Shown here piece after piece: positions 8,403 through 39,819 of a stretch of 64,000 nucleotides of DNA. A program made the translations under genes and the position numbers. Under the pieces are notes generated by a model, which was not told the DNA's origin, did not search any database, and was given only the letters and a program-made list of their open reading frames with translations. How positions within the stretch are numbered: the stretch's first letter is position 1; each line of letters starts with the position of its first letter. This stretch comes from Amycolatopsis sp. FBCC-B4732 (GTDB lineage: Bacteria > Actinomycetota > Actinomycetes > Mycobacteriales > Pseudonocardiaceae): positions 830,001 to 894,000 of the forward strand of contig NZ_CP095376.1 in the NCBI RefSeq assembly GCF_023008405.1, in the 5' to 3' direction.

Positions 8403-8466
8403 ATATGCGCCGCGGGGTCCCGGGCGTCAAGGGGCCCGGTTAAAGTGCACAGCAGGAGGGGACGAG

Positions 8467-27111: not shown

Positions 27112-28941
27112 TCAGCTCTGCAGGTCGTACACCGCCTGGCCGTCGACCGTGGTGGCGGTGAAGTTCGCCGTCACCCAGTTCGTGATCTCCGACGAACCCC
27201 CACCGGGTCCGCCGCCCCGACCACCCTCGATGTAGTACTTGATCTCGCCCGCCGCCACGTACGCCTTGAACTCGGCTAGCGTCGGGGCCGGGTCCGAGCC
27301 GCTCCAGCCGCCGATGCCGATCACCGCCTTGCCGCTGGCCAGTTCCAACGACGCCGCGCTCTGCGAACCGGTCGTCGCCGCCGCCCACTTGGTCATCGTC
27401 TGGGAGAGCAGAGAACCGATCGTGCTCGACGAAGAGTCCTCGCCGCCGCCGAAGCCGCTCGACGTCGGGCCGGACGTCGGGATCGAACCGGTGTGGGCCA
27501 CCGACGCCGTTTCGACGCCGTACGCCGCCGACGACACCCCGATGGTCAGGACCAGCGCCGCGGCCACGACGGTGACCAGCCGGCGCGACGCGGGCGCGCC
27601 CATCACCAGCACCGTGCCGACCACCACGCCCAGCACCGCGACGACCCACTTCAGCGCCGGGAACCAGTCCGGCGTCCGGTCGAGCAGGATGAACGACCAC
27701 ACCGCCGTCGCGACGACCATGCCGGCGAGCGTCGCCCGCGGGCCCAGGTTGGCCCGGCCCTGCCACAGCGCGCGGCCCGAGATCGCGACCAGTCCGGCGA
27801 TCGCCGGCGCGAGCGCCACCGAGTAGTACGGGTGGACCGTGCCGCTCATGAAGCTGAACACCAGCGCCGTCACGACCAGCCAGCCGCCCCACAAGACCAG
27901 CGCCAGCCGCGTCCGGTCGGTGCGCGGCGCGCGCCGGGTGAACCACAGCCCCGCAACCAGGCCGATCAGCGCCGCGGGCAGCAGCCACGAGATTTCCGTG
28001 CCGAAGCTGGCGCCGAACATCCGGAACAGGCCCGTCGACCCGCCGAACCCGGTGTTGCCGCCCATCCCGCCGCCGCCCATGCCACCGTTGCCCTCGCCGC
28101 CGAAGATGCGGCCCAACCCGTTGTAGCCCAACGCGAGTTCGAGGAGACTGTCCCCTTCGGACCCGCCGATGTACGGCCGTGACGACGCCGGCCACAGCTC
28201 GACCAGCGCGACGAACCAGCCCGCCGAGACGACCAGCGCGACGACCGCGCCGCCCAGGTGCAGCAGCCGCTTGCCGAGCGACGTCGGCGCCGCGAGCAGG
28301 TACGCCAGCCCGAACGCCGGCAGCACCAGGAACGCCTGCATCATCTTCGTCAGGAAGCCGCACCCGATCGCGGTACCGGCCAGCGCGAGCCACACCGGGC
28401 TCGCCTTTTCCGTGGCGCGCACGACGAAGTAGGCGCCCGCGACCATGAGCAGGACGAGCAGCGCGTCCGGGTTGTTGAACCGGAACATCAGCGCCGCCAC
28501 CGGCGTCACCGCGAGCACCGCGCCCGCCAGCAGCCCGGCGACCGGGCCCGCGGTCCGCTTCACCGCGAGGTACAGGATCCCGACGGACGCGACGCCCATC
28601 AGGGCCTGCGGCGCCAGCACGGTGAAGCTCGAGAACCCGAAGATCCGCGCGAACGCCGTGCCGACCCACAACGCGGCCGGCGGCTTGTCGACGGTCAGCA
28701 CGTTGCCCGAGTCGAGCGACCCGAACAGCCACGCCTTCCAGCTCTGCGTCCCGGACTGCACGGCCGCCGCGTAGAAGGAGTTGCCGTAGCCGGACGCGGT
28801 CAGGTTCCAGAAGTACAGCACCGCGGTCGCGGCCAGCAGCCCGAACACCGCCGGGCGGACCCAGCGCGGTGGCGCCTGCGCCGCGGAGTCCTTGCGGTGG
28901 CGCGGTTCCCGCGTCACGGGGTCGGACAGGACGGCGGTCAT
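27112..28941 (-). CDS. Polytopic mannosyltransferase-like protein (PMT/ArnT family), paralogue 1
   Basis: 609 residues. About a dozen membrane helices, beginning PAVFGLLAATAVLYFWNL; the periplasmic loop has YGNSFYAAAVQSG and VDKPPAALWV, the loop pattern of GT-C enzymes that move a sugar from a polyprenyl phosphate. A Gly-rich loop (GGEGNGGMGGGGMGG) and a soluble C-terminal domain (VIGIGGWSGSDPAPTLAEF, YYIEGGRGGGPGG) follow. Its start overlaps the stop of the GT2/GtrA gene as ATGA, fitting a pair in which one makes the lipid-linked sugar and the other transfers it. Paralogue 2 is at 37900. Confidence 0.9.
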   Translation of the reverse strand: MTAVLSDPVTREPRHRKDSAAQAPPRWVRPAVFGLLAATAVLYFWNLTASGYGNSFYAAAVQSGTQSWKAWLFGSLDSGNVLTVDKPPAALWVGTAFARIFGFSSFTVLAPQALMGVASVGILYLAVKRTAGPVAGLLAGAVLAVTPVAALMFRFNNPDALLVLLMVAGAYFVVRATEKASPVWLALAGTAIGCGFLTKMMQAFLVLPAFGLAYLLAAPTSLGKRLLHLGGAVVALVVSAGWFVALVELWPASSRPYIGGSEGDSLLELALGYNGLGRIFGGEGNGGMGGGGMGGNTGFGGSTGLFRMFGASFGTEISWLLPAALIGLVAGLWFTRRAPRTDRTRLALVLWGGWLVVTALVFSFMSGTVHPYYSVALAPAIAGLVAISGRALWQGRANLGPRATLAGMVVATAVWSFILLDRTPDWFPALKWVVAVLGVVVGTVLVMGAPASRRLVTVVAAALVLTIGVSSAAYGVETASVAHTGSIPTSGPTSSGFGGGEDSSSSTIGSLLSQTMTKWAAATTGSQSAASLELASGKAVIGIGGWSGSDPAPTLAEFKAYVAAGEIKYYIEGGRGGGPGGGSSEITNWVTANFTATTVDGQAVYDLQS

Positions 28942-30300: not shown

Positions 30301-30807
30301 TCAGCTGTGGACGCGCAGCGGCACCACGTTGCTCGGCAGGGACGCCCGGCCGGGCTCGTGCTTCGGTGCCGTGAAGCTGATCGTCAGCGTCACCAGGCTC
30401 GCGTAGCGCGGGTGGCGGTCGACGTACACCTCCGGCACCGCGCACGCCGCCGCCAGTACCGAACGGTGGCGGTGCAGGTGGTCGAAGGCTTCGCGCCCGT
30501 ACAGCGACACGACGACGTCACCGCCGCGCGGGCGGCTCCACAGGATCGTCGGCCGGCCGCCGGGGAGGCGCAGCTGCGGGAACGCCGCCCGCAAGCGGTG
30601 TTGCAGCGCGACCGCGCGGATCCGGGCGCGGACCTGGTGACGGCGCAGCACCGCCCAGCCGAGCGCGGCGGCGAGGATGACCGAGGCCCACAGCGGGCCC
30701 GCCCACAGCGCGAACGTCACGACGGCGTAGGGGAGCAGCGTCAGGCCCAGGATCTCCCACCGCCAGTGGTAGATCCGCAGCGGGAAGGACGGCTGCCTGG
30801 TGGTCAT
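30301..30807 (-). CDS. Small membrane protein, resembling integrative-element transfer-region proteins
   Basis: 168 residues from ATG 30807, chosen for the strong AAAGGAG 7 bases upstream. An in-frame ATG at 30921, coupled to the upstream gene by ATGA, would give 206 residues. After RIYHWRWEILGL come two hydrophobic segments (LTLLPYAVVTFALWAG and LWASVILAAALGWAVL). A soluble tail follows with PTILWSRPRGGDVVVSLYG and DRHPRYASLVTLTISF. Tails like RHPRYA-x-LVTL are familiar to me from proteins encoded before the FtsK-like translocase in actinomycete integrative conjugative elements. No translocase, integrase or replication gene is present here, so it looks like a remnant. Confidence 0.65.
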   Translation of the reverse strand: MTTRQPSFPLRIYHWRWEILGLTLLPYAVVTFALWAGPLWASVILAAALGWAVLRRHQVRARIRAVALQHRLRAAFPQLRLPGGRPTILWSRPRGGDVVVSLYGREAFDHLHRHRSVLAAACAVPEVYVDRHPRYASLVTLTISFTAPKHEPGRASLPSNVVPLRVHS

Positions 30808-30917
30808 GTCCGTGCTCCTTTCGGTCGGGTGGCGGCGGAAGAAGCCGCCGAGGTGGCGCAGCAGGCGTCCGGCTCCGGTGGCGGCCACGATGGCCGCGAC
30901 GATCGCCGGCGCGGAGG

Positions 30918-31187
30918 TCATGTCGGGATCCGGGTCTTGGGGGCGGGCTGGAGGTCCTTGTCCTTGCCGAGCCGCCAGGTCCACCGCCACCCGGCCCAGA
31001 CCGCGGCGACGGATCCCAGCAGGACGAGCACGACGGCCTGCCCCACGAGGCCCTCGAGCGGCGCGAGCCGGAGCAGCACCAGCAGCGCCCACAGCTGGGA
31101 CGCGGTGAAGGGGATGACGAGCCCGGCGGCGTAGACGCCACGACGCCAGCGGCTGCCGCGCGGTGCGGCGGTGGTGTAGGGGTCCAT
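30918..31187 (-). CDS. Small two-helix membrane protein
   Basis: 89 residues, ATG 31187 with GAGGAGGAGGG upstream. Two hydrophobic segments (YAAGLVIPFTASQLWALLVLL and VGQAVVLVLLGSVAAVWAGW) are followed by a basic tail (WRLGKDKDLQ). Its stop overlaps the ATG at 30921 of the next reading frame. Together with the following gene it resembles the small membrane proteins of conjugative-element spread regions. The function is unknown. Confidence 0.65.
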   Translation of the reverse strand: MDPYTTAAPRGSRWRRGVYAAGLVIPFTASQLWALLVLLRLAPLEGLVGQAVVLVLLGSVAAVWAGWRWTWRLGKDKDLQPAPKTRIPT

Positions 31188-31635
31188 GAGTTGCCCTCCT
31201 CCTCGGTGGATCCAGAAAACCTCCGGAACGCCGCGCCTTGTGTGTCAGGTGACTCAGAAGGCGGGATTCAGCTCGCGATTCGTCGAAGTTCGGCCAGGCG
31301 GGTGGTGCGACGTTGGCCGGATGTAGGAGGGGGGCGACTCGGCTTTTGATACCCCCGTGGCCGCGTCCGGCTGCGGACGGGCAGTCCGATCAGGCGCCTC
31401 GGCGGCGTCTCCGGGCACTCTCCGTGAAGGCCTGGGAGCGGCCGGTCGTCGAGGTGTACGGCGAAAAGGTGGCGTTTGAGCTGCGCGCACAACCCTTTCG
31501 GCGGAGTCCGATCGAGTCGGCGGCGTCATTGGCCCGTGGATGGGATAAGGTGCGCTCTGTGTCCACGAACTGTCACCTCCCTACGTTCGCCTACCTGGGT
31601 AGGTAAGCCCAGTGGCCGGTGCCTACCTACATTCT
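31188..31635. other. Intergenic stretch of 448 bases between divergent transcripts
   Basis: It should contain the promoter of the small membrane-protein pair (near 31200) and that of the XRE-led operon (near 31560-31630). A short open frame from a GTG at 31425 to 31606 on the plus strand (VKAWERPVVEVYGEKVAF onward) has no ribosome binding site I would trust and no family I know. The last 50 bases carry the CCTACC/GGTAGG repeats listed separately. I see no RNA gene or mobile-element end. Confidence 0.5.
31590..31630. promoter_or_regulatory. CCTACC/GGTAGG operator-like repeats upstream of the XRE gene
   Basis: CCTACC-TG-GGTAGG (31590-31603) is a perfect 6-bp inverted repeat. GCCTACCTAC (31621-31630) repeats one arm 31 bases further on, just before the ATG at 31636. 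Clustered half-sites at the promoter of a regulator gene suggest autoregulation by the XRE protein. Confidence 0.6.
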
Positions 31636-32892
31636 ATGTCGGCGGCGGGGCCGCCGATAGGTACTGATGTGGTAACGCTGACCGTCGAAGCGGTGGGCAC
31701 GGAGTTGCGCCGCTTGCGCAAGGCAGCCGGCCTGACCCAGGCCGACGTCGCCAGGATCATCGGCGTGAGCCGGGCGAACCTGACGCAGTGGGAAACCGGC
31801 CGCTACCTCCCTTCGGTGGAGAACGCCAGGTTGCTCGACGATCACTTCCGGGCGGCGAACGCACTGGTCCAGATGGTCGAAGCGGCTCGGTCGCCCGCTC
31901 CTGCGGCCGCCGCGCTCCTGTCGACGCGCGGCTCGCTGCTCGAGGTCTTCAGGCGGGCGGGACAGAGCCTTGTCGGGCACTTGATCCGCGACGAGAACGG
32001 CCGTGCGGTCGGCTGGCGGCACAACCTCCAGCAGGACAACGAGCAGACCACGCTCGCCACCGCGTACGGGATCAGTGCGTTGGCCGTGTTGAGCTCCGCC
32101 TACATCGACCTACGTCCGGTCGTCGAGCGTCTCTACGCCAAGCGGTCCGACTTCGGCTGGCAAGGTCGGTCCGCCGGACGGCGCCCCGAGGTCACCGCCG
32201 CGGTGGTGGACGCGCTGTGCCGGGCCAGCACCGTCCTGTCCGCCGAAGAGGGTCTGCAGCACCTCGAGAACTCGCTCGACGACTACAGCCGCACCCGGCC
32301 CTTCCTGCTCGCCACCGCGTTGCGCACGTCGGCCCGGATCGGCCCCGGCGCTCCGCTGACCCGCCGGCTGACGGACGACCTCCTCACCGCCCGGCTGGAC
32401 TTCGACGGCGTCCTCCTGTGGGGCGAGAAGAAAGAACCCGGGCTGGTGGCCCCGGAACCGTCCACAGCGCACACCGCGCGCGCCGTCGTGGCGTTGCGTG
32501 ACCTGCTGCGCACGGGGGAAGACCGCGCCGACGTCCGGGACGCGGTCGAAGTGGCGACGCAGTGGCTCGTCGACCGGACGCACCCGGACGACGGCATCAT
32601 GGAAGACCTGGCGTTGCCGCAACCCGGCCGGGAAGCCGTCCGGGTCAACATCAAGCACTTCACGTCCGCGTGGGTCGTGCAAGCGCTGGCCGAGGCGCCC
32701 CGGGTCCCGGCCGTCCGGCTGAACCAAGCGCTCGATTCGCTCTGGGAACGCTACGAACCCGGTATCGGCCTCTGGGCCTGGGGCAGCGGCGATCTCCCGA
32801 TCTGGATGACCCTCGACGCCGTCACCGCCCTGCGGGCGGCCGCGCTGGCGTTCACCGCACCACCTTTTCTTCCACCCGCAGCCGTAGAATAG
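31636..32892 (+). CDS. XRE-family regulator with a terpene-cyclase-like helical toroid sensor domain
   Basis: 418 residues from ATG 31636; GTG at 31612 or 31669 are alternatives, and the lack of a ribosome binding site may mean a leaderless transcript. Residues about 20-75 are a clear XRE helix-turn-helix (LRRLRKAAGLTQADVARIIG, then SRANLTQWETGRYLPS). From about residue 120 to the end the protein is helical, with repeats of the alpha/alpha-toroid kind (PFLLATALRTSARIG, HTARAVVALRDLL, FTSAWVVQALAEAP, MTLDAVTALRAAALA), as in prenyltransferase or terpene-cyclase toroids. This part probably senses a ligand. It heads the operon that runs to 37353. Confidence 0.85.
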   Translation: MSAAGPPIGTDVVTLTVEAVGTELRRLRKAAGLTQADVARIIGVSRANLTQWETGRYLPSVENARLLDDHFRAANALVQMVEAARSPAPAAAALLSTRGSLLEVFRRAGQSLVGHLIRDENGRAVGWRHNLQQDNEQTTLATAYGISALAVLSSAYIDLRPVVERLYAKRSDFGWQGRSAGRRPEVTAAVVDALCRASTVLSAEEGLQHLENSLDDYSRTRPFLLATALRTSARIGPGAPLTRRLTDDLLTARLDFDGVLLWGEKKEPGLVAPEPSTAHTARAVVALRDLLRTGEDRADVRDAVEVATQWLVDRTHPDDGIMEDLALPQPGREAVRVNIKHFTSAWVVQALAEAPRVPAVRLNQALDSLWERYEPGIGLWAWGSGDLPIWMTLDAVTALRAAALAFTAPPFLPPAAVE

Positions 32893-32906
32893 AGAACCCC
32901 CGCACC

Positions 32907-33668
32907 ATGAGCACGACTCCTTTCGTCGTTGCCGCCGACCCCTTGGCCGGCCACGCTTTCCCGCGCCGCATCGCGGACGCGCTGGGCAACGACGATCCCC
33001 CCACCGGCCTGGCCCAGCTCGAAACAGCGGCCAAGCAGATCCGCGCCGACCGGCTCGGTTTCGCCGCCTGGCTACGGGATCTGGTCGCCGACGAAGCGGC
33101 GGTCGCCGATGTGGCGAAGCGTTCGTACTGGCACCCCAACGGTTTCGCGAAGATCGTCCTCCACACGGGACTCGAACCGGAGTTCCGCGTGCGCCTGCAC
33201 GTCTGGCCCCGCGGCGAGACGCCGTCGCGCGGCGAATCCAACCCGCACAGCCACCGGTGGGAGTTCGCCTCTTACGTGCTCACCGGAACCGGCATGCACA
33301 TGGTGGACTTCGCGGAGACCACCGAGGGCGGGAAGCTCTACCGGCGGTACCGCTACGGAACCGATCCGGCGAACCCGGCGGCGCTCGTCGCCGACGGCGA
33401 GGTCCGGCTGAAACGCCGCGGGGCACTGCACGTCCACGGCGGTGACGTCTACACGTGCGACACCTCGGTGGTGCACACGGTGCGCCCGATCGACGCCGGG
33501 CTCACGGCGACCGTCGTGGTCCAGGGGCCGCGCCGGACGCCGACGACGGTCGTCTACTGCGAACCCGGCGAAAGCGACGACCAGCCCAATGCCGAACTTT
33601 CAGGTGAGGACTTCGTCCGGCTCGTGAGCGAAGTCCTTTCGACCCTCGAGAACGAGGTCGCACCATGA
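32907..33668 (+). CDS. Cupin-fold protein
   Basis: 253 residues, ATG 14 bases after the XRE stop. The central part has the double-psi beta-helix pattern: FRVRLHVWPRG, then NPHSHRWEFASYVLTG (first metal-binding motif, His-x-His and Glu) and DTSVVHTVRPIDAG (second motif His). It resembles cysteine-dioxygenase-like cupins in length and layout. It could be a metal-dependent oxygenase, isomerase or sugar-binding protein. The stop overlaps the next start (ATGA), so it is co-translated with the dCTP-deaminase-like protein. Confidence 0.8.
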   Translation: MSTTPFVVAADPLAGHAFPRRIADALGNDDPPTGLAQLETAAKQIRADRLGFAAWLRDLVADEAAVADVAKRSYWHPNGFAKIVLHTGLEPEFRVRLHVWPRGETPSRGESNPHSHRWEFASYVLTGTGMHMVDFAETTEGGKLYRRYRYGTDPANPAALVADGEVRLKRRGALHVHGGDVYTCDTSVVHTVRPIDAGLTATVVVQGPRRTPTTVVYCEPGESDDQPNAELSGEDFVRLVSEVLSTLENEVAP

Positions 33669-34294
33669 CACTCGTGGAGTGGAAAGCCCAGGTCAAAAAG
33701 CGCCGGATGCCGGTGCGGCGCCGGCGCGGGGTGCTGACCGACCGGGCCATCCGGCGGGCCCAGGCGGCGGGCGAACTGCGGGTCGAGCCGTTCGACGCCG
33801 CCCTCGTGCGCCCGGCTGCGCTCAGCCTGCGGCTCGGGCGGGAGGCGTTCACGCTGGTGACGACCGGTCCGGTCGACGTCGCGGACCGCTCGACCCACCC
33901 GCAACTGGTCCCCAAGGAGCTCGACGACCGCGGACGGCTGGCCGTGGACCCCGGCGAAGTGGTGCTCGCGCCGACCTTGGAGAAGATCGGCCTCCCGGAA
34001 CACCTGGTCGGCCTCGTCGACGGGACCAGCGACTACGCGCGGCTGGGGATCGGTGTCGTGCTGTGCGGTCAGGTCAGCCCCGGCTTCGGCCGGGGGACGG
34101 GCGCCGTGCTGACGCTGGAGATCGTCAACCACCTGCGGCACCCGGTCCTGTTGTATCCAGGGGCGCGGATCTGCAACTTGATGCTGTTCGCTTCGACCGG
34201 GAGCGAGCTGCCCTACGGCGAAATGCCGCACAACTACTCGAGCGACCACGCGGTCGTCGCGTCCCGATTGGCGGACCATGTCCGGCAGCTCTGA
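33665..34294 (+). CDS. dCTP deaminase/dUTPase-fold protein with an altered active-site motif
   Basis: 209 residues. The trimeric dUTPase/Dcd fold is recognisable: RPAALSLRLG, a DGTSDYARLGIGV segment at 119-131, SPGFGRGTGAVLTLEIVN at 138-155 and LLYPGARICNLMLF at 162-175. True dCTP deaminases have GRSSxxR at the first site; here it reads GTSDYAR, so the binding Arg is lost while Ser122 and Arg126 remain. The catalytic-type Glu152 in TLEIVN is kept. It may deaminate or hydrolyse a modified nucleotide, or only bind one. It is preceded and followed by overlapping genes of the same operon. Confidence 0.85.
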   Translation: MTLVEWKAQVKKRRMPVRRRRGVLTDRAIRRAQAAGELRVEPFDAALVRPAALSLRLGREAFTLVTTGPVDVADRSTHPQLVPKELDDRGRLAVDPGEVVLAPTLEKIGLPEHLVGLVDGTSDYARLGIGVVLCGQVSPGFGRGTGAVLTLEIVNHLRHPVLLYPGARICNLMLFASTGSELPYGEMPHNYSSDHAVVASRLADHVRQL

Positions 34295-35324
34295 GCTCCT
34301 CCTCGGCGATCTGGGCGAGCGGGGCATCCAGGAACACGTGTTGCGGCCGCGCTACGGCCGCACGGAAGGCTTCGGCGACGACAGCGCTCTGCTCGGCGAG
34401 GTGGCCGCGCGGAGCGAGCTCGTCGCGACGACCGACAGCTGCCCGACGCCGGTGGTGAACATCCTGGCCGAGCCGGACCTGTTCCACGCGGGCTGGCTGC
34501 TGGCCACGATCAACCTGTCGGACCTGGCCGCGGCCGGCGCCACGCCGTTGGGGCTCGTCGTGAACTACACGCTCCCCAAGACGACCACGGTCGCGCAGTT
34601 CGAGCGGCTACTCGACGGCGTAGACGCCTGTTGTCGCGAGCACCGCACGAAGGTCGCCGGCGGCGACATCCAAGACGGCGCGACGATGCAGCTGACGGCT
34701 ACCGCGATCGGCCGGTGCGTGCCGGGCAGCAGGCTCCGGCGCTCCGGCGCGAAGGAAGGCGACCGCCTGCTGCTGGTCGGCTCGCCGGGGTACCTCTGGG
34801 CAGCGGCTCTGGTGAAGACGGGCCGGGCTTCGGTGCCGCGGCGGGTGGAAAACGAACTCTGGGACCGCGCCTGCCGCCCGAAGGCCCAGCTCAAGGCCGG
34901 CCAGGTCCTGGCGGCCCGCAGCTTCGCCAGAGCGGCGATGGACGTCTCCGACGGCCTGTTCGCGACCGTCCGCACGCTGTGCGAGGCGAACGCCCTCGGC
35001 GCGGAGATCAGCGAGGAGTTCGACTTGGCCGACGGCGTGGCCCAGGTCGCGGCTCAGTGCGACCTCCGGCCCTTCGAGCTCGCCCAGACGTGGGGCGACT
35101 GGGGACTCGTCGTCGTCACCAGGGCGGAAGACGTCGAGCTGGCCATCAAGACACTGGATGAAGAGGGCGTGCCGGCACAGGAAATCGGGACGTTGACGGC
35201 GGGGCCGGAGCTGACGCTGGGAGCCGCGCGGTGGGAGGGCATTGCACAGGAGCGGTTCTCACCGAGCTCCTGGCACGGCGGTGAGCCCGCGACGCTCGTG
35301 GAGGCCGTGCTGGGCAGGCGATAA
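34278..35324 (+). CDS. ThiL/PurM-superfamily kinase-like protein
   Basis: 348 residues, overlapping the previous gene by 17 bases. Landmarks of the ThiL/AIR-synthase superfamily are present: GFGDDSALL near 32-40, an ATTDSCPTPVV segment, INLSDLAAAGATPLGL, GGDIQDGATM and AMDVSDGLFATVRTL. The C-terminal ThiL motif GGEDYELL reads WGDWGLVVV here, and the first Asp pair is spaced differently. It probably uses ATP to phosphorylate or cyclise a small molecule that is not thiamine phosphate. No thiamine genes are near. Confidence 0.85.
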   Translation: MSGSSELLLGDLGERGIQEHVLRPRYGRTEGFGDDSALLGEVAARSELVATTDSCPTPVVNILAEPDLFHAGWLLATINLSDLAAAGATPLGLVVNYTLPKTTTVAQFERLLDGVDACCREHRTKVAGGDIQDGATMQLTATAIGRCVPGSRLRRSGAKEGDRLLLVGSPGYLWAAALVKTGRASVPRRVENELWDRACRPKAQLKAGQVLAARSFARAAMDVSDGLFATVRTLCEANALGAEISEEFDLADGVAQVAAQCDLRPFELAQTWGDWGLVVVTRAEDVELAIKTLDEEGVPAQEIGTLTAGPELTLGAARWEGIAQERFSPSSWHGGEPATLVEAVLGRR

Positions 35325-35348
35325 GCCGTTGAACGGTGTCGCGGTGGG

Positions 35349-35354
35349 TACAAT
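35349..35354 (+). promoter_or_regulatory. Possible internal promoter -10 box
   Basis: TACAAT stands out in the 152-base gap after the ThiL-like gene. TTGAAC 14 bases upstream could serve as a short-spaced -35. If real, the last genes of the operon can be read separately. Confidence 0.35.
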
Positions 35355-35402
35355 CGAGCTTCTTGCTCGCGCCACTGCGGACCACTGGAGGACGGCGGAG
35401 TG

Positions 35403-35480
35403 ATGCCACCACGAACGCCTCGGCCCGCGCTCGCCCGGGCTTTCGGCAGGGGCCCGTCGATCGAGCGGCTCGAGGCATGA
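35403..35480 (+). CDS. Possible 25-residue leader ORF
   Basis: ATG 35403 lies after GGAGG and encodes a 25-residue basic peptide beginning MPPRTPRPALARAFGRG. Its TGA overlaps the ATG of the next gene at 35477 as ATGA, like the other junctions in this operon. It may be a coupling leader. There is no homology evidence. Confidence 0.35.
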   Translation: MPPRTPRPALARAFGRGPSIERLEA

Positions 35481-36190
35481 CGCCGGCCAGGGATTTCTGG
35501 ACCTTCGAGCAGGACCAGGACATCACCATCGTGTGCCCACCGCTGCCGGAGGAATACCGGCGGTATCTCGCCTACGCCGATCCGGAGAGCGCCGACTTCG
35601 TTTCGTTGTACACCTATGCCGACCCTGATGCGCTGATCGAGCTGTTCGGCCACATCCGGGCCCGCAATCCCGAAGCCTTGGTCACTTTCCACACGGCCGA
35701 CGAGTTGAGCTCCCACCACTACACCGCCCACCTCATCGTGCTAGGCGGCGTCGATTGGAACTCGGTGACCCGGGACGTGCTCGAACGGGTCGATCTCCCC
35801 GTAGAGCAAGTCAGCAGAGACGACGACGCCGAACAAGGCGGCTTCCGGGTGCGGCAGAACGGCCGGTCGATCCTGGTGGAACCGCAGTTCGACGGTGGCC
35901 GCCTGGTGGAGGACGTTGCCCAGTTCTACCGCGGGATCAGCCCCTTCAACCGGAAACGGACCGTGACCGTGTGCAACGGCATGTACGGCCGCGGCACGCT
36001 CGGAGCGGTTCGCGCGCTGACGGACGTGCGGTTCCGCGACCGGAACGAGGCGTACGTGCGCGAGCGCTTCGGCGAAGCGGAGTCGTTCAGCATCATCAGC
36101 CGGGTGCCGGTCGTCGGCGGGCAGGGTCTGACGCCCGACTGGACGATCGAGGAGAACCGGCTGCACGAGTGGCCCGAGGCCGCCGGATGA
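35477..36190 (+). CDS. Regulator-family C-terminal domain without a DNA-binding part
   Basis: 237 residues from ATG 35477. FWTFEQDQDITIVCPPLPEE, then YADPESADFVSLYTYADPDALIEL and AHLIVLGGVDWNSVTRDVL, is a pattern I know from actinomycete proteins annotated as XRE-type regulators, where it follows a helix-turn-helix. No such motif exists upstream here. The later NGMYGRGTLGAVRALTDVRFRDRNEAYV suggests a nucleotide- or ligand-binding fold. It may work with the XRE protein at 31636 or be an enzyme in its own right. Its stop overlaps the glycosyltransferase start. Confidence 0.65.
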   Translation: MTPARDFWTFEQDQDITIVCPPLPEEYRRYLAYADPESADFVSLYTYADPDALIELFGHIRARNPEALVTFHTADELSSHHYTAHLIVLGGVDWNSVTRDVLERVDLPVEQVSRDDDAEQGGFRVRQNGRSILVEPQFDGGRLVEDVAQFYRGISPFNRKRTVTVCNGMYGRGTLGAVRALTDVRFRDRNEAYVRERFGEAESFSIISRVPVVGGQGLTPDWTIEENRLHEWPEAAG

Positions 36191-37353
36191 CCGCCCGGCA
36201 ATACCGGTCTCACCGGGGTCTGCTGGCCGCTTTCGACACCTTCGACGCGCCCCGTGCGGAGTTCGACGCGATCATCGTGCCCACCGGCCGCCCGGCCCCC
36301 TACCTGCGTCAGGCGATCGCCGCGGCCAGGGAACACGACGTCTTCCTGCTCCTGTTGTGCAGCAGGCGGTCCACCATCGCCAGCGCTGCGCTGGAGGCGA
36401 AGGGGGCGGGCGTCCGCGCGCTCGCCATCGACATCGACGAGGTGGACCCCGGGCTCGTGCCGCCGTTCGCCACGGATCAGCTCCTGCGGGAGACCCGGTT
36501 CCAGAGGCCGACCGACACCAGCTTCAAGCGGAACCTCGGCCTGCTCATCGCGGCGCTGGCCGGCTGGCAGCGGATCCTCTTCCTCGACGACGACATCGAC
36601 CTGCCGGACACCGCGGATCTCGGCGTCGCGGCCGGCCTGCTCGGCGAGTTCCCGGTCGTCGGGCTCGCCAACGCGGGAATGCCGGACAACTCCGTCGTGT
36701 GCCACGCGATCCGCGACGTCGGGCAAGCGCAAGACACCTTCATCGGTGGGGGCGCGCTCGCGGTCGGGGAAGCCGCGTTCGGCTCGTTCTTCCCCAACAT
36801 CTACAACGAAGACTGGTTCTTCCTGCTCGACGGCAGGGATCTGCGGCCGTCGGCGGTCACGGGGCTGGCGGTCCAGAAGCGCTACGATCCCTACCGGGAC
36901 GCCCGTCGCGCCCGTGGTGAAGAGCTGGGGGACACCCTGGCCGAGGGCGTGTTCGGGCTGTTCGACAGCCACCTCGGCCTCATGCACGCCGACGAGCGGT
37001 ACTGGCGGGAGTTCTTCGCCGACCGCCGCCGGATCATCCGCGAAACGATCGCACTGGTCCAGCGGTCGAAGATCGAAGCGGGCCTGCGCGCGCGGATGGT
37101 CGACTCGCTCAGAGCGGCGATCGGGCGCAGCGAGTTGATCACGCCGGAACTGTGCACGCGGTACCTCCGTGCCTGGCAAGCCGACTGCGTGCGCTGGCGG
37201 CGGCGGATCACCGAGCTTCGTCGGTACCACGGGGGTTCGGGCGTCGAGCAGGCCGTCGGGGTGCTCGACCTTCCTTCGTTCGCCCAGGCCGGTGTCGATG
37301 TCCGGGTCAGTACCGGGCGGCGCCGATCGGCGGCACCGGTGGCGCGGGTGTGA
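36187..37353 (+). CDS. GT-A-like glycosyltransferase
   Basis: 388 residues, ATGA overlap with the previous gene. The N-terminal half fits a nucleotide-diphospho-sugar transferase fold: FDAIIVPTGRPAPYLRQAI, a RILFLDDDIDLPD segment with an acidic metal-binding triplet near residue 140, and FIGGGALAVGEAAFGSFFPN, then NEDWFFLLDG, where the acceptor site would be. The C-terminal part is helical and Arg-rich. No membrane segments, so it is cytoplasmic. It could glycosylate the product of the other operon enzymes. Its end overlaps the convergent GNAT gene by 47 bases. Confidence 0.75.
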   Translation: MTARQYRSHRGLLAAFDTFDAPRAEFDAIIVPTGRPAPYLRQAIAAAREHDVFLLLLCSRRSTIASAALEAKGAGVRALAIDIDEVDPGLVPPFATDQLLRETRFQRPTDTSFKRNLGLLIAALAGWQRILFLDDDIDLPDTADLGVAAGLLGEFPVVGLANAGMPDNSVVCHAIRDVGQAQDTFIGGGALAVGEAAFGSFFPNIYNEDWFFLLDGRDLRPSAVTGLAVQKRYDPYRDARRARGEELGDTLAEGVFGLFDSHLGLMHADERYWREFFADRRRIIRETIALVQRSKIEAGLRARMVDSLRAAIGRSELITPELCTRYLRAWQADCVRWRRRITELRRYHGGSGVEQAVGVLDLPSFAQAGVDVRVSTGRRRSAAPVARV

Positions 37354-37855
37354 CCGGCACGAGGTCCTTGACCAGCACGTGACACCGTTCCGGCTCGTCC
37401 CGGAAACTGCCGTCCGGCAACACCGTGAGCGCGTAACAGGTCACTTCGTCGTGGCCCCAATCCCGGTAATCCAAGCGGCGGTAGAGGTGGGCCGCGGCCG
37501 TGTTGTCGGTGCGGACCGCCAGGGCCACCCGGTGGTGGCCGCTGCCGAAGAGGTACTCCTCCGCCGCGGCGACCAGGGCCCGGCCGATGCCGCGGTTGCG
37601 CAGCTCCGGCCGGACCTCGAGGTGGGTGAGCAGGGCGACCTCGGAGAGGTGCTGGCGGATCGGCGGTTCTTCGGCGGTTTCCAGCCACACGTACACGTGG
37701 CCTGCCGGGTGGCTGTCCAGCCACGCGAGGAGAAGCACACCGCGCCTTTGCCGCTGGCGCCTCAGCCGATCGGCGAAGTACCAGCCGGTGCCGAAGGCCG
37801 CGACGAACGATTCCAAGTTCGCGGAACGCGCCGGTCGGACCTGGGGTTCGGTCAT
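37307..37855 (-). CDS. GNAT-family N-acetyltransferase
   Basis: 182 residues. The acetyl-CoA-binding core is visible: VALLTHLEVRPELRNRGIGRALV (R-x-x-x-G-I-G) at about 73-95, then NTAAAHLYRRLDYRDWG. It would acetylate a small amine or a protein N-terminus. The Pro-rich C-terminal tail runs 47 bases into the 3' end of the convergent glycosyltransferase gene. Confidence 0.9.
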   Translation of the reverse strand: MTEPQVRPARSANLESFVAAFGTGWYFADRLRRQRQRRGVLLLAWLDSHPAGHVYVWLETAEEPPIRQHLSEVALLTHLEVRPELRNRGIGRALVAAAEEYLFGSGHHRVALAVRTDNTAAAHLYRRLDYRDWGHDEVTCYALTVLPDGSFRDEPERCHVLVKDLVPVTPAPPVPPIGAARY

Positions 37856-37899: not shown

Positions 37900-39819
37900 C
37901 TACGCGGTCGCGGTCAGGTCGTAGACCGTTACACCGTCCACAGTGGACGCCTCATAGTGGTCGGCCACCCACTCCGCGATCTGCTGGGCCGCGTCCGAAC
38001 CCGTGCTGCCCTGCATCGTCATGCCCTCACCCAGGAAGTAGTGGATCCGGCCGGCAGCCACGTACTGCTGGAACTGCGCCAGCGTCGGATAAGGGTCGGT
38101 CCCGTTGAACCCACCCACCGCCATCACCGGCGCTCCGCTCGCCAGCTGGTAACCCGCCGCCGCGTTCGACAACACCGTTGCCGCTGTCCACGTGTACTGG
38201 GAGGCGTCCTTCTGCAGCAACGCCGTCAGGGAAGCGCCCGGCATCGTCGTGCTCAGCAGTGAGCCCGGGCCGCCGCCGCGGAAGCCGCCCGGGCCGCGGC
38301 CGCCGAAGCCCGATGAGGGGCCTGCCGACGGGATTGCGCCGCTGTGTGTCACCGATGCCGTGGCCAGGGTGTACGCGCCCGTTCCGGTCAATGTCGCGAC
38401 GAGGGCCAGGACGGCGACCGCGGACGCCGCCCAGCGGGTCAGGTGGGCTGCGAAGAACAGGGCCACCGCCGCCAGCAGGCCGCCCACCAGGATCGTCGGG
38501 GCCAGCCATGGCTGCCACGTCGAGCTCGACAGAACCAGGTACGCCGTGAGCGCTGTCAGGGCCATGCCGCCGCTGAGCAGGCCCGATGCCGTCGGGCGGG
38601 AACGCAGGCGCCACAGCTGGACCGCCGCCGTGCCGACCAGCGCCGCGATCGGCGGGGCCAGTGCGACCGTGTAGTACGGGTGGATGATGCCGCCCATGTA
38701 GCTGAACACCAGCGCCGTCACCAGGAGCCAGCCGCCCCAGAGGACCAGGGCCGTGCGGGAGCGGTCCGTGCGCGGGGCGTGGCGGGTGAACCACAGGCCC
38801 GCGCCCAGCGCCAGCACGGCCGCCGGCAGCAGCCACGCGATGCCGCCCGCCATTTCGCTGCCGAACAGCCTGGTCAGGCCGGTCGAGCCCCAGCCGCGGC
38901 CGGCGCCGCCGCCGACGCTGCCCACCTCGTCGCCCGTGATGCGGCCGAAGCCGTTGTAGCCGAAGACCAGTTCCCACAGGGAGTTCGTCTGGGAGCCGCC
39001 GATGAACGGGCGCTCGGCGGCCGGCCAGAGCGCGACCACCACCAGGTACCAGCCGGCCGCCGCGACCGTGGCAAGCAACGCGCCCAGCAGGTGCAGCAGC
39101 CGCTTGCCCAGCGACACCGGCGCCGCGATCAGGTAGGCGAGCGCGAACGCCGGGAGCACCAGGAACGCCTGCAGCATCTTCGCCAGGAAGCCGAACCCCA
39201 CCGCGACGCCGGCCAGCGCGAGCCAGCGCGGGCTCGCCTTCTCGGCGGCGCGGACCACACAGTACGCGGCGGCGACCAGGAGCAGCACCAGCAGCGCGTC
39301 GGGGTTGTCGAAGCGGAACATCAGCGCGGCGGCCGGGGTCAGCGCCAGCACGAGCCCGGCGAGCAGGCCCGCGGCCGGGCCGGACGTGCGGCGGACCGCC
39401 GCGTGCAGCAGCCAGACCGAGCCCACGCCCATCAGCGCCTGCGGTACCAGGATGCTCCACGCGTTGACGCCGAACACCCGCGCCGAGAGCCCCATGACCC
39501 ACAGCGCCGCCGGGGTCTTGTCGACCGTGATCGCGTTCGCCGCGTCGCTGGAGCCGAAGAACAGCGCCTTCCAGCTCTCCGAACCCGCCTGGGCGGCCGC
39601 CGAGTAGAAGGCGTTCGCCCAGCCGGACGCGCCGAGGCCCCAGAGGTACAGCACCGCTGTGCCGAGCAGGAGGACGGCCAGCGCGGGCCGGTGCCAGGTC
39701 GAGCGGGCGGGCACAAGAGGGGCCACTGCGGTTTCGCGTGACGCTACACCGGCTTTTCGGGGGTTCCGGGTGGCGGAGCCCCCGGCCCGGGGCGAAGCCC
39801 CGGATGTCACAGCGGTCAT
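37900..39819 (-). CDS. Polytopic mannosyltransferase-like protein (PMT/ArnT family), paralogue 2
   Basis: 639 residues, the same architecture as the protein at 27112: about a dozen helices, WANAFYSAAAQAG and VDKTPAALWVMG in the first loop, a Gly-rich loop (GSVGGGAGRGWG) and a soluble C-terminal domain with MAVGGFNGTDPYPTLAQF. The ATG lies 4 bases after the sensor-kinase stop, so it is co-transcribed with it. Codons 5-21 come from the 49-bp palindromic element, giving an odd SGASPRAGGSATRNPR leader not seen in paralogue 1. The element is in frame here and the protein is intact. Confidence 0.9.
   Translation of the reverse strand: MTAVTSGASPRAGGSATRNPRKAGVASRETAVAPLVPARSTWHRPALAVLLLGTAVLYLWGLGASGWANAFYSAAAQAGSESWKALFFGSSDAANAITVDKTPAALWVMGLSARVFGVNAWSILVPQALMGVGSVWLLHAAVRRTSGPAAGLLAGLVLALTPAAALMFRFDNPDALLVLLLVAAAYCVVRAAEKASPRWLALAGVAVGFGFLAKMLQAFLVLPAFALAYLIAAPVSLGKRLLHLLGALLATVAAAGWYLVVVALWPAAERPFIGGSQTNSLWELVFGYNGFGRITGDEVGSVGGGAGRGWGSTGLTRLFGSEMAGGIAWLLPAAVLALGAGLWFTRHAPRTDRSRTALVLWGGWLLVTALVFSYMGGIIHPYYTVALAPPIAALVGTAAVQLWRLRSRPTASGLLSGGMALTALTAYLVLSSSTWQPWLAPTILVGGLLAAVALFFAAHLTRWAASAVAVLALVATLTGTGAYTLATASVTHSGAIPSAGPSSGFGGRGPGGFRGGGPGSLLSTTMPGASLTALLQKDASQYTWTAATVLSNAAAGYQLASGAPVMAVGGFNGTDPYPTLAQFQQYVAAGRIHYFLGEGMTMQGSTGSDAAQQIAEWVADHYEASTVDGVTVYDLTATA
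39758..39806 (-). repeat. 49-bp palindromic element, copy B (inside the N-terminus of paralogue 2)
   Basis: Identical over all 49 bases to copy A at 24510-24558, in the opposite orientation on the chromosome. It is read in the same frame as the first half of the SARP gene, so both proteins carry the same short SGASPRAGGSATRNPR segment despite having nothing else in common. Confidence 0.9.

Follow-up and report, generated by a model that had tools for sequence, protein, structure and literature searches.

A 64,000-nt stretch of the Amycolatopsis sp. FBCC-B4732 genome (NZ_CP095376.1, positions 830,001–894,000 of the forward strand; hereafter the window) carries what sequence comparison indicates to be a conserved operon of four genes, not described before, that joins a toroid-bearing XRE regulator, a cupin, a Dcd-fold protein and a ThiL-fold protein. 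We call these genes A to D. Two further open frames on the same strand, E and F, follow them, and we found that the six genes are two units: the operon A-B-C-D and an independent pair, E-F. Below, G numbers denote genomes and L numbers fetched loci. The features, in window coordinates, are:

31636–32892 (+): A, XRE helix-turn-helix (HTH) plus (alpha/alpha)6 toroid (Pfam HTH match, structure model)
32907–33668 (+): B, cupin of the thiol-dioxygenase fold (Pfam Cupin_2 below cut-off, structure model)
33665–34294 (+): C, Dcd-fold protein (Dcd match, 1.3e-31)
34278–35324 (+): D, ThiL/PurM-fold protein (AIRS match, 3.2e-19)
31580–31630 (+): CCTAC/GTAGG array, predicted operator of A, with four CCTAC and one GTAGG, stopping just 5′ of the A ATG
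35332–35475 (+): remains of the sequence upstream of E and of its 5′ end (alignment to G704); relatives have HTH-coding sequence here
35477–36190 (+): E, XRE-type regulator reduced to its C-terminal domain by loss of the HTH (E-F unit)
36187–37353 (+): F, predicted glycosyltransferase, so named in some relatives (E-F unit)
30301–30921 and 30918–31187 (−): two small divergent genes 5′ of A (open frames)

The preliminary description of this DNA had proposed one tightly packed operon of all six genes. The six same-strand frames and the overlaps B/C (4 bp), C/D (17 bp) and E/F (4 bp) bear out the packing in part, and A and B are only 14 bp apart; D and E, however, are separated by 152 bp, and close packing is confined to A-D and to E-F. 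A search for relatives of F gave a match in 14 of 40 genomes, its own included, and 13 relative stretches were fetched. E adjoins F in 12 of these 13, ten hold E-F without A-D, two hold both (L016 and L018), and seven carry Crp-like and cyclase-like genes, both divergent to E-F. Given these ten E-F loci that lack A-D, we rejected a single six-gene system. The comparison of gene order that the preliminary description had called for points the same way: of the 37 Amycolatopsis genomes with B, only the window's own and G704 have A-B-C-D-E-F contiguously. E and F lie within the fetched stretch in 18 of the 37 and not in another 18, with G710, whose contig ends inside D, left out of either count. 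In G739, A-D is followed by E and then by a rearranged E/F region.

Relatives of E are called at 333–365 aa and have an N-terminal HTH-type part (in the L018 relative, Pfam HTH_31 at 3.2e-05, just under cut-off); E of the window begins after that part. Window positions 35332–35437 and 35454–35475 align to positions 8413–8309 and 8178–8157 of G704 (L132), which are the upstream and 5′ parts of its E, with the intervening sequence skipped. The HTH-coding part of E has therefore been deleted in the window, and the neighbouring E-F unit is partly deleted there. E as an intact regulator was rejected, since its DNA-binding part is lost compared to relatives; the window copy is a truncated regulator of XRE type, paired with F. 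Neither E nor F matches a Pfam or NCBIfam family above its curated cut-off, and the earlier naming of F as a glycosyltransferase finds its counterpart in the names that some relatives carry from their sources.

We next consider the conservation of A-D. Of 80 Amycolatopsis genomes, 37 have B; with 70% coverage and no stop codon required for presence, B is present in all 37, A in 36, C in 36 and D in 34, and 32 hold all four genes. The gaps are G715 (no A), G014 (no C), G007 and G015 (no D) and G710, where the contig end cuts D. The A-D order is also found in Lentzea, Pseudonocardia and Labedaea, with C missing from L096, L100 and L101. Median dN/dS is 0.20–0.23 for each of the four genes, which are under purifying selection. 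Thus the part of the earlier proposal that joined a toroid-XRE regulator, a cupin, a Dcd fold and a ThiL fold in an unassigned operon is upheld, with the order conserved and the folds supported. Among the literature matches listed, no paper treats this gene set.

Within the genus, A-D occupies two recurring chromosomal places. The first lies between GT2/GT39 genes and a histidine kinase gene; the second lies between carboxypeptidase/DUF998 and SDR/MaoC/APH genes (L059, Pfam-typed), and other loci have flanking genes of lengths matching this second place. In 33 of 37 Amycolatopsis loci (exceptions G017, G003, G713 and G715), a relative of one of the small divergent genes is the listed match closest to A on its upstream side; the window's own small divergent genes (30301–31187) have no Pfam family above cut-off. 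Window positions 31192–31301, upstream of A, align in G003 (L018, 13527–13418) to sequence next to the small divergent gene and to the final bases of a Crp-like gene. G003 also has a gene of two-transmembrane (2TM) type on the opposite strand between A and B. In some A-D loci (L063:7947–8939, and L064 between B and D), a PLD-like protein that has a membrane segment takes the place of D or sets D apart.

Beyond these loci, a D profile at E ≤ 1e-50 detected only the window's own genome among 396 genomes of the phylum; as relatives exist in Lentzea, Pseudonocardia and Labedaea, that sample missed them. The toroid profile at E ≤ 1e-8 matched 7 of 200 genomes of the order and 3 of 296 of the phylum, own genome included. 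Plasmids gave no D match at E ≤ 1e-20 and viral contigs no B relative; three phage records have weak B-like matches, and two PHROG families of unknown function were matched, all in contexts that were uninformative. G185 holds a decayed second copy (L066:5661–6140, G185:C10), in which a B fragment is joined to a C fragment, next to a site-specific recombinase-like gene (by eye) and with an A fragment close by. This fragment is a sign that A-D can move.

The start of A may be 31612, 31636 or 31669. In addition to the XRE HTH, its structure model has an (alpha/alpha)6 toroid of terpene-cyclase-like form. The class II cyclase acid motif DxDD/DxDT is absent from the toroid of the window's A and from 12 of 13 toroid sequences, the exception being L100 with DPDD at residue 17 of its piece, and an active class II terpene cyclase was rejected for A on this ground. 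Aligned upstream regions show a conserved CCTAC/GTAGG array that overlaps or abuts the start of A. Between −200 and +60 of A, the mean is 4.6 copies, compared to 0.55 in mononucleotide shuffles, and 41 of 45 A loci have at least four copies (L018, L060 and L099 have three each, L064 one). The array search gave one match against 0.02 expected, and the ordered CCTAC-CCTAC-GTAGG array occurs once in the 10.19-Mb host genome, with none for the reversed control. None of six toroid genes with a membrane segment (by eye) in place of the HTH has the array, which goes with toroid genes of the HTH form. Because the array accompanies HTH-type A loci, is missing from HTH-less toroids and is single in the genome, A is probably self-regulating, with the array as its predicted private operator.

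B has a Pfam match to Cupin_2 only, below cut-off, while its AlphaFold model has a cupin fold of the thiol-dioxygenase type. The three histidines H114, H116 and H190 (HxH...H) are invariant in 19 of 19 sequences and would bind a metal. The closest solved structures are cysteine, mercaptosuccinate, 3-mercaptopropionate and ergothioneine dioxygenases, which share the fold and the three-His site; B is only 10–20% identical to them, a likeness at the level of fold, and has no match to a Pfam thiol-dioxygenase family. The host genome has a second, distant B-type cupin (L068, G000:C1:1255675–1256379), which stands in a neighbourhood resembling that of a non-ribosomal peptide synthetase (NRPS), with an EEP-like gene (both by eye).

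C and D each resemble a nucleotide-type enzyme whose substrate motifs have changed. C scores 106.2 bits against the dCTP deaminase model TIGR02274 (cut-off 92.8) and retains the positions aligned to Glu138, Ser111 and Arg115 of E. coli Dcd, which we take to be the general base and two further residues of the deaminase site. The Arg/Lys before the Ser, the Asp of IDPG and the C-terminal lid are presumably substrate contacts. Unlike Dcd, C has Thr (Ile in L016) for this Arg/Lys, Ser for the IDPG Asp, a four-residue insertion and a different lid; nine homologs all share this Ser and the altered lid residues. The excerpt of PMC10733785 holds no Dcd active-site detail. D scores 170 bits against ThiL TIGR01379, below the equivalog cut-off of 184.15, and shares with ThiL the AIRS fold, the GDD loop and the TTD, GGD and SDG positions. 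The GDD loop contacts the adenine nucleotide in ThiL, according to the part of PMC6416309 consulted. The GGED(Y/H) loop of the host genome's own ThiL is replaced in D by WGDW, invariant in 9 of 9 sequences. The host genome has a canonical Dcd (210 bits) and a canonical ThiL elsewhere, and C and D as its sole Dcd and ThiL were therefore rejected. Judged by motif comparison, residues for catalysis or ATP are retained in C and D while the substrate motifs have been replaced, in line with the preliminary description's remark that both active sites were changed.

To place B in a wider setting, we searched a sample of its class. B-type cupins were found in 34 of 394 genomes, and all 34 places outside the own genome were fetched. 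The partners near the cupin were 2TM proteins in 19 places, inositol-phosphatase in 16, NUDIX in nine, toroid in six (one weak, L192), radical SAM in three, EEP in two and TIR-containing proteins in two, with TIR-profile matches at least 0.6 kb from the cupin excluded. L165, L177 and L191 have no tallied partner; L165 has a histidine phosphatase. Pfam supports the NUDIX, inositol-phosphatase, EEP, radical-SAM and TIR types in one member each; the 2TM protein has no Pfam family match. Individual loci combine a 2TM-toroid protein, a B-type cupin and a convergent NUDIX gene (G437 and G469, of the same class, perhaps Streptomyces), a 2TM-toroid protein, EEP and cupin (L076), or, in loci from the same taxonomic order such as L073, a 2TM protein, cupin and inositol-phosphatase-like gene; the L073-type 2TM protein resembles, by eye, those beside B in G003 and L095. 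One TIR-adjoining locus, L168, also has WD40 repeats and a NACHT-associated domain. Across actinomycetes, B-type cupins repeatedly have as neighbours a toroid or 2TM protein and one of several interchangeable phosphate or nucleotide enzymes.

Several further loci were noted. L186, L187 and L189 place a B-type cupin beside a radical-SAM protein and NUDIX, to which L186 and L187 add a P-loop kinase-like gene; the L186 radical-SAM protein matches PADLOC viperin profiles (7.6e-19), for which generic radical-SAM similarity may account. L106 and L112, from a deltaproteobacterial metagenome-assembled genome, have a B-type cupin followed by thymidylate-kinase-like and GreA-like genes. At L179:8315–10255, a TIR-like protein (by eye) is divergent from a 2TM-cupin-phosphatase locus, outside the tally.

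As anatomy, the picture of an operon switched by a ligand and built around a metal oxidase plus two re-purposed enzymes of nucleotide type has good support. Our full reading, to which we give a probability of roughly 0.45, is that A-D is self-contained and acts on a nucleotide-derived small molecule in a stress or conflict role; the substrate and the role are proposed because of the folds of C and D and the neighbours of B. A would bind the array and repress its own operon until a small molecule in its toroid lifts the repression. B, as a three-His iron-type cupin, would oxidise the substrate, while C would deaminate or hydrolyse, and D phosphorylate at the expense of ATP, the same or a linked nucleotide-like metabolite. 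Most likely the system would be induced by stress or conflict and would serve to make, remove or repair such a molecule. Within a wider module of sensor, B-type cupin and swappable phosphate or nucleotide enzyme, A-D would be the form that is anchored on DNA and belongs to Pseudonocardiaceae. Still more tentatively, B-type cupins may define an undescribed class in which a sensor on the membrane (2TM-toroid or 2TM) or on DNA (XRE-toroid) is paired with a three-His oxidase and the swappable enzyme, and in which the toroid of A would read the metabolite that its enzymes act on.

Several observations count against this reading. C is missing in L096, L100, L101 and G014 and D in G007 and G015, and, given such loci, the enzymes are not strictly interdependent. 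Protein-distance correlations among A-D are 0.72–0.96 over all genomes of both clades, values inflated because the two clades split. For the window's site, represented by 16 genomes, they fall to 0.21–0.61, with −0.02 to 0.33 between A-D and the flanking GT2/GT39 genes; the other 16 genomes give 0.84–0.98, in a group that wrongly includes G003, whose GT2 is cut by the stretch end. A-D is therefore partly mosaic at the window's site, its co-inheritance is only moderate, and inheritance as a tight block is weakened. The main arguments for the operon are independent of block inheritance. The array shuffles preserved mononucleotide content only, and the control gene starts were calls of a simple gene finder; the models of A and B were built from 9 and 11 sequences; and the partner tally used profiles made from members of these same loci, included related genomes and counted some partners up to 2.2 kb from the cupin. 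B relatives also occur in NRPS-like neighbourhoods (by eye).

Those neighbourhoods, some with aminotransferases (L067/L105, L068, L104, L107 and L185; by eye except L107), suggest that A-D might be a small biosynthesis operon for a specialised metabolite or signal, in which C and D would make a compound, nucleoside-like or phosphorylated, for B to oxidise, and A would read the product or an intermediate, a circuit that a private autoregulator would suit. The preliminary description had likewise entertained a metabolite pathway, and the distant NRPS-adjacent B relatives keep that idea alive; the neighbours of A-D at the two genus places, however, are unlike a biosynthetic cluster, A-D has no transporter, tailoring or assembly gene as a constant neighbour, the downstream genes vary, and the wider partners of B are often phosphohydrolases, not synthetases. 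We consider this explanation unlikely. Handling of a thiol-bearing cofactor or damaged metabolite, with B a true thiol dioxygenase and C and D acting on the nucleotide part, is improbable to a greater degree: the best solved neighbours of B argue for it, and sulfur or anion metabolism would fit both the genes of the inositol-phosphatase family close to other B-type cupins and the CitMHS/ArsB-type permease of L170, but B has no Pfam thiol-dioxygenase match and the shared fold leaves its substrate unfixed.

Dcd-type enzymes are used in nucleotide-depletion defence, and C and D might deplete or alter deoxynucleoside triphosphates after A senses a phage signal. The patchy distribution (37 of 80 genomes), the poor tracking of flanking genes, the decayed fragment beside a recombinase-like gene in G185 and the TIR-containing neighbours in 2 of 34 places are consistent with such an anti-phage system. 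Yet PADLOC matches A in its HTH region only and B-F nowhere, PADLOC also has no match to the seven proteins tested from the wider set (cupin, 2TM, toroid, phosphatase and PLD-like), the scanned flank genes in L059 and L061 are not defence-like, and C is dispensable and has lost positions that we take to be substrate contacts. We give low credence to the nucleotide-based defence raised earlier. The NTP-dependent conflict systems of multicellular prokaryotes, as far as the excerpt of PMC7159879 describes them, resemble A-D in combining a regulated sensor with nucleotide-handling parts, and two B-family loci adjoin TIR-containing proteins (L168 with its WD40 repeats and NACHT-associated domain); A-D differs in having no STAND/NACHT NTPase or known effector. 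Term searches of the excerpts of PMC7159879 and PMC8195603 returned no cupin or ThiL.

The genes tig and clpX lie to the right. A GNAT-like acetyltransferase frame (family by eye; 37307–37855, −) overlaps the 3′ end of F convergently, and two similar GT39-like membrane proteins (by eye; 27112–28941 and 37900–39819) flank A-F. The pair possibly marks a hot spot of recombination close to tig/clp.

The operon means that genes named thiamine-phosphate kinase in databases (D) or matching the dCTP deaminase profile (C) probably do something else, since they sit in a conserved, self-regulated operon apart from the canonical enzymes. With its predicted private operator, a reporter screen can find the inducing ligand, and the pattern of toroid or 2TM protein, cupin and hydrolase offers an entry to an uncharacterised family spread over the actinomycetes.

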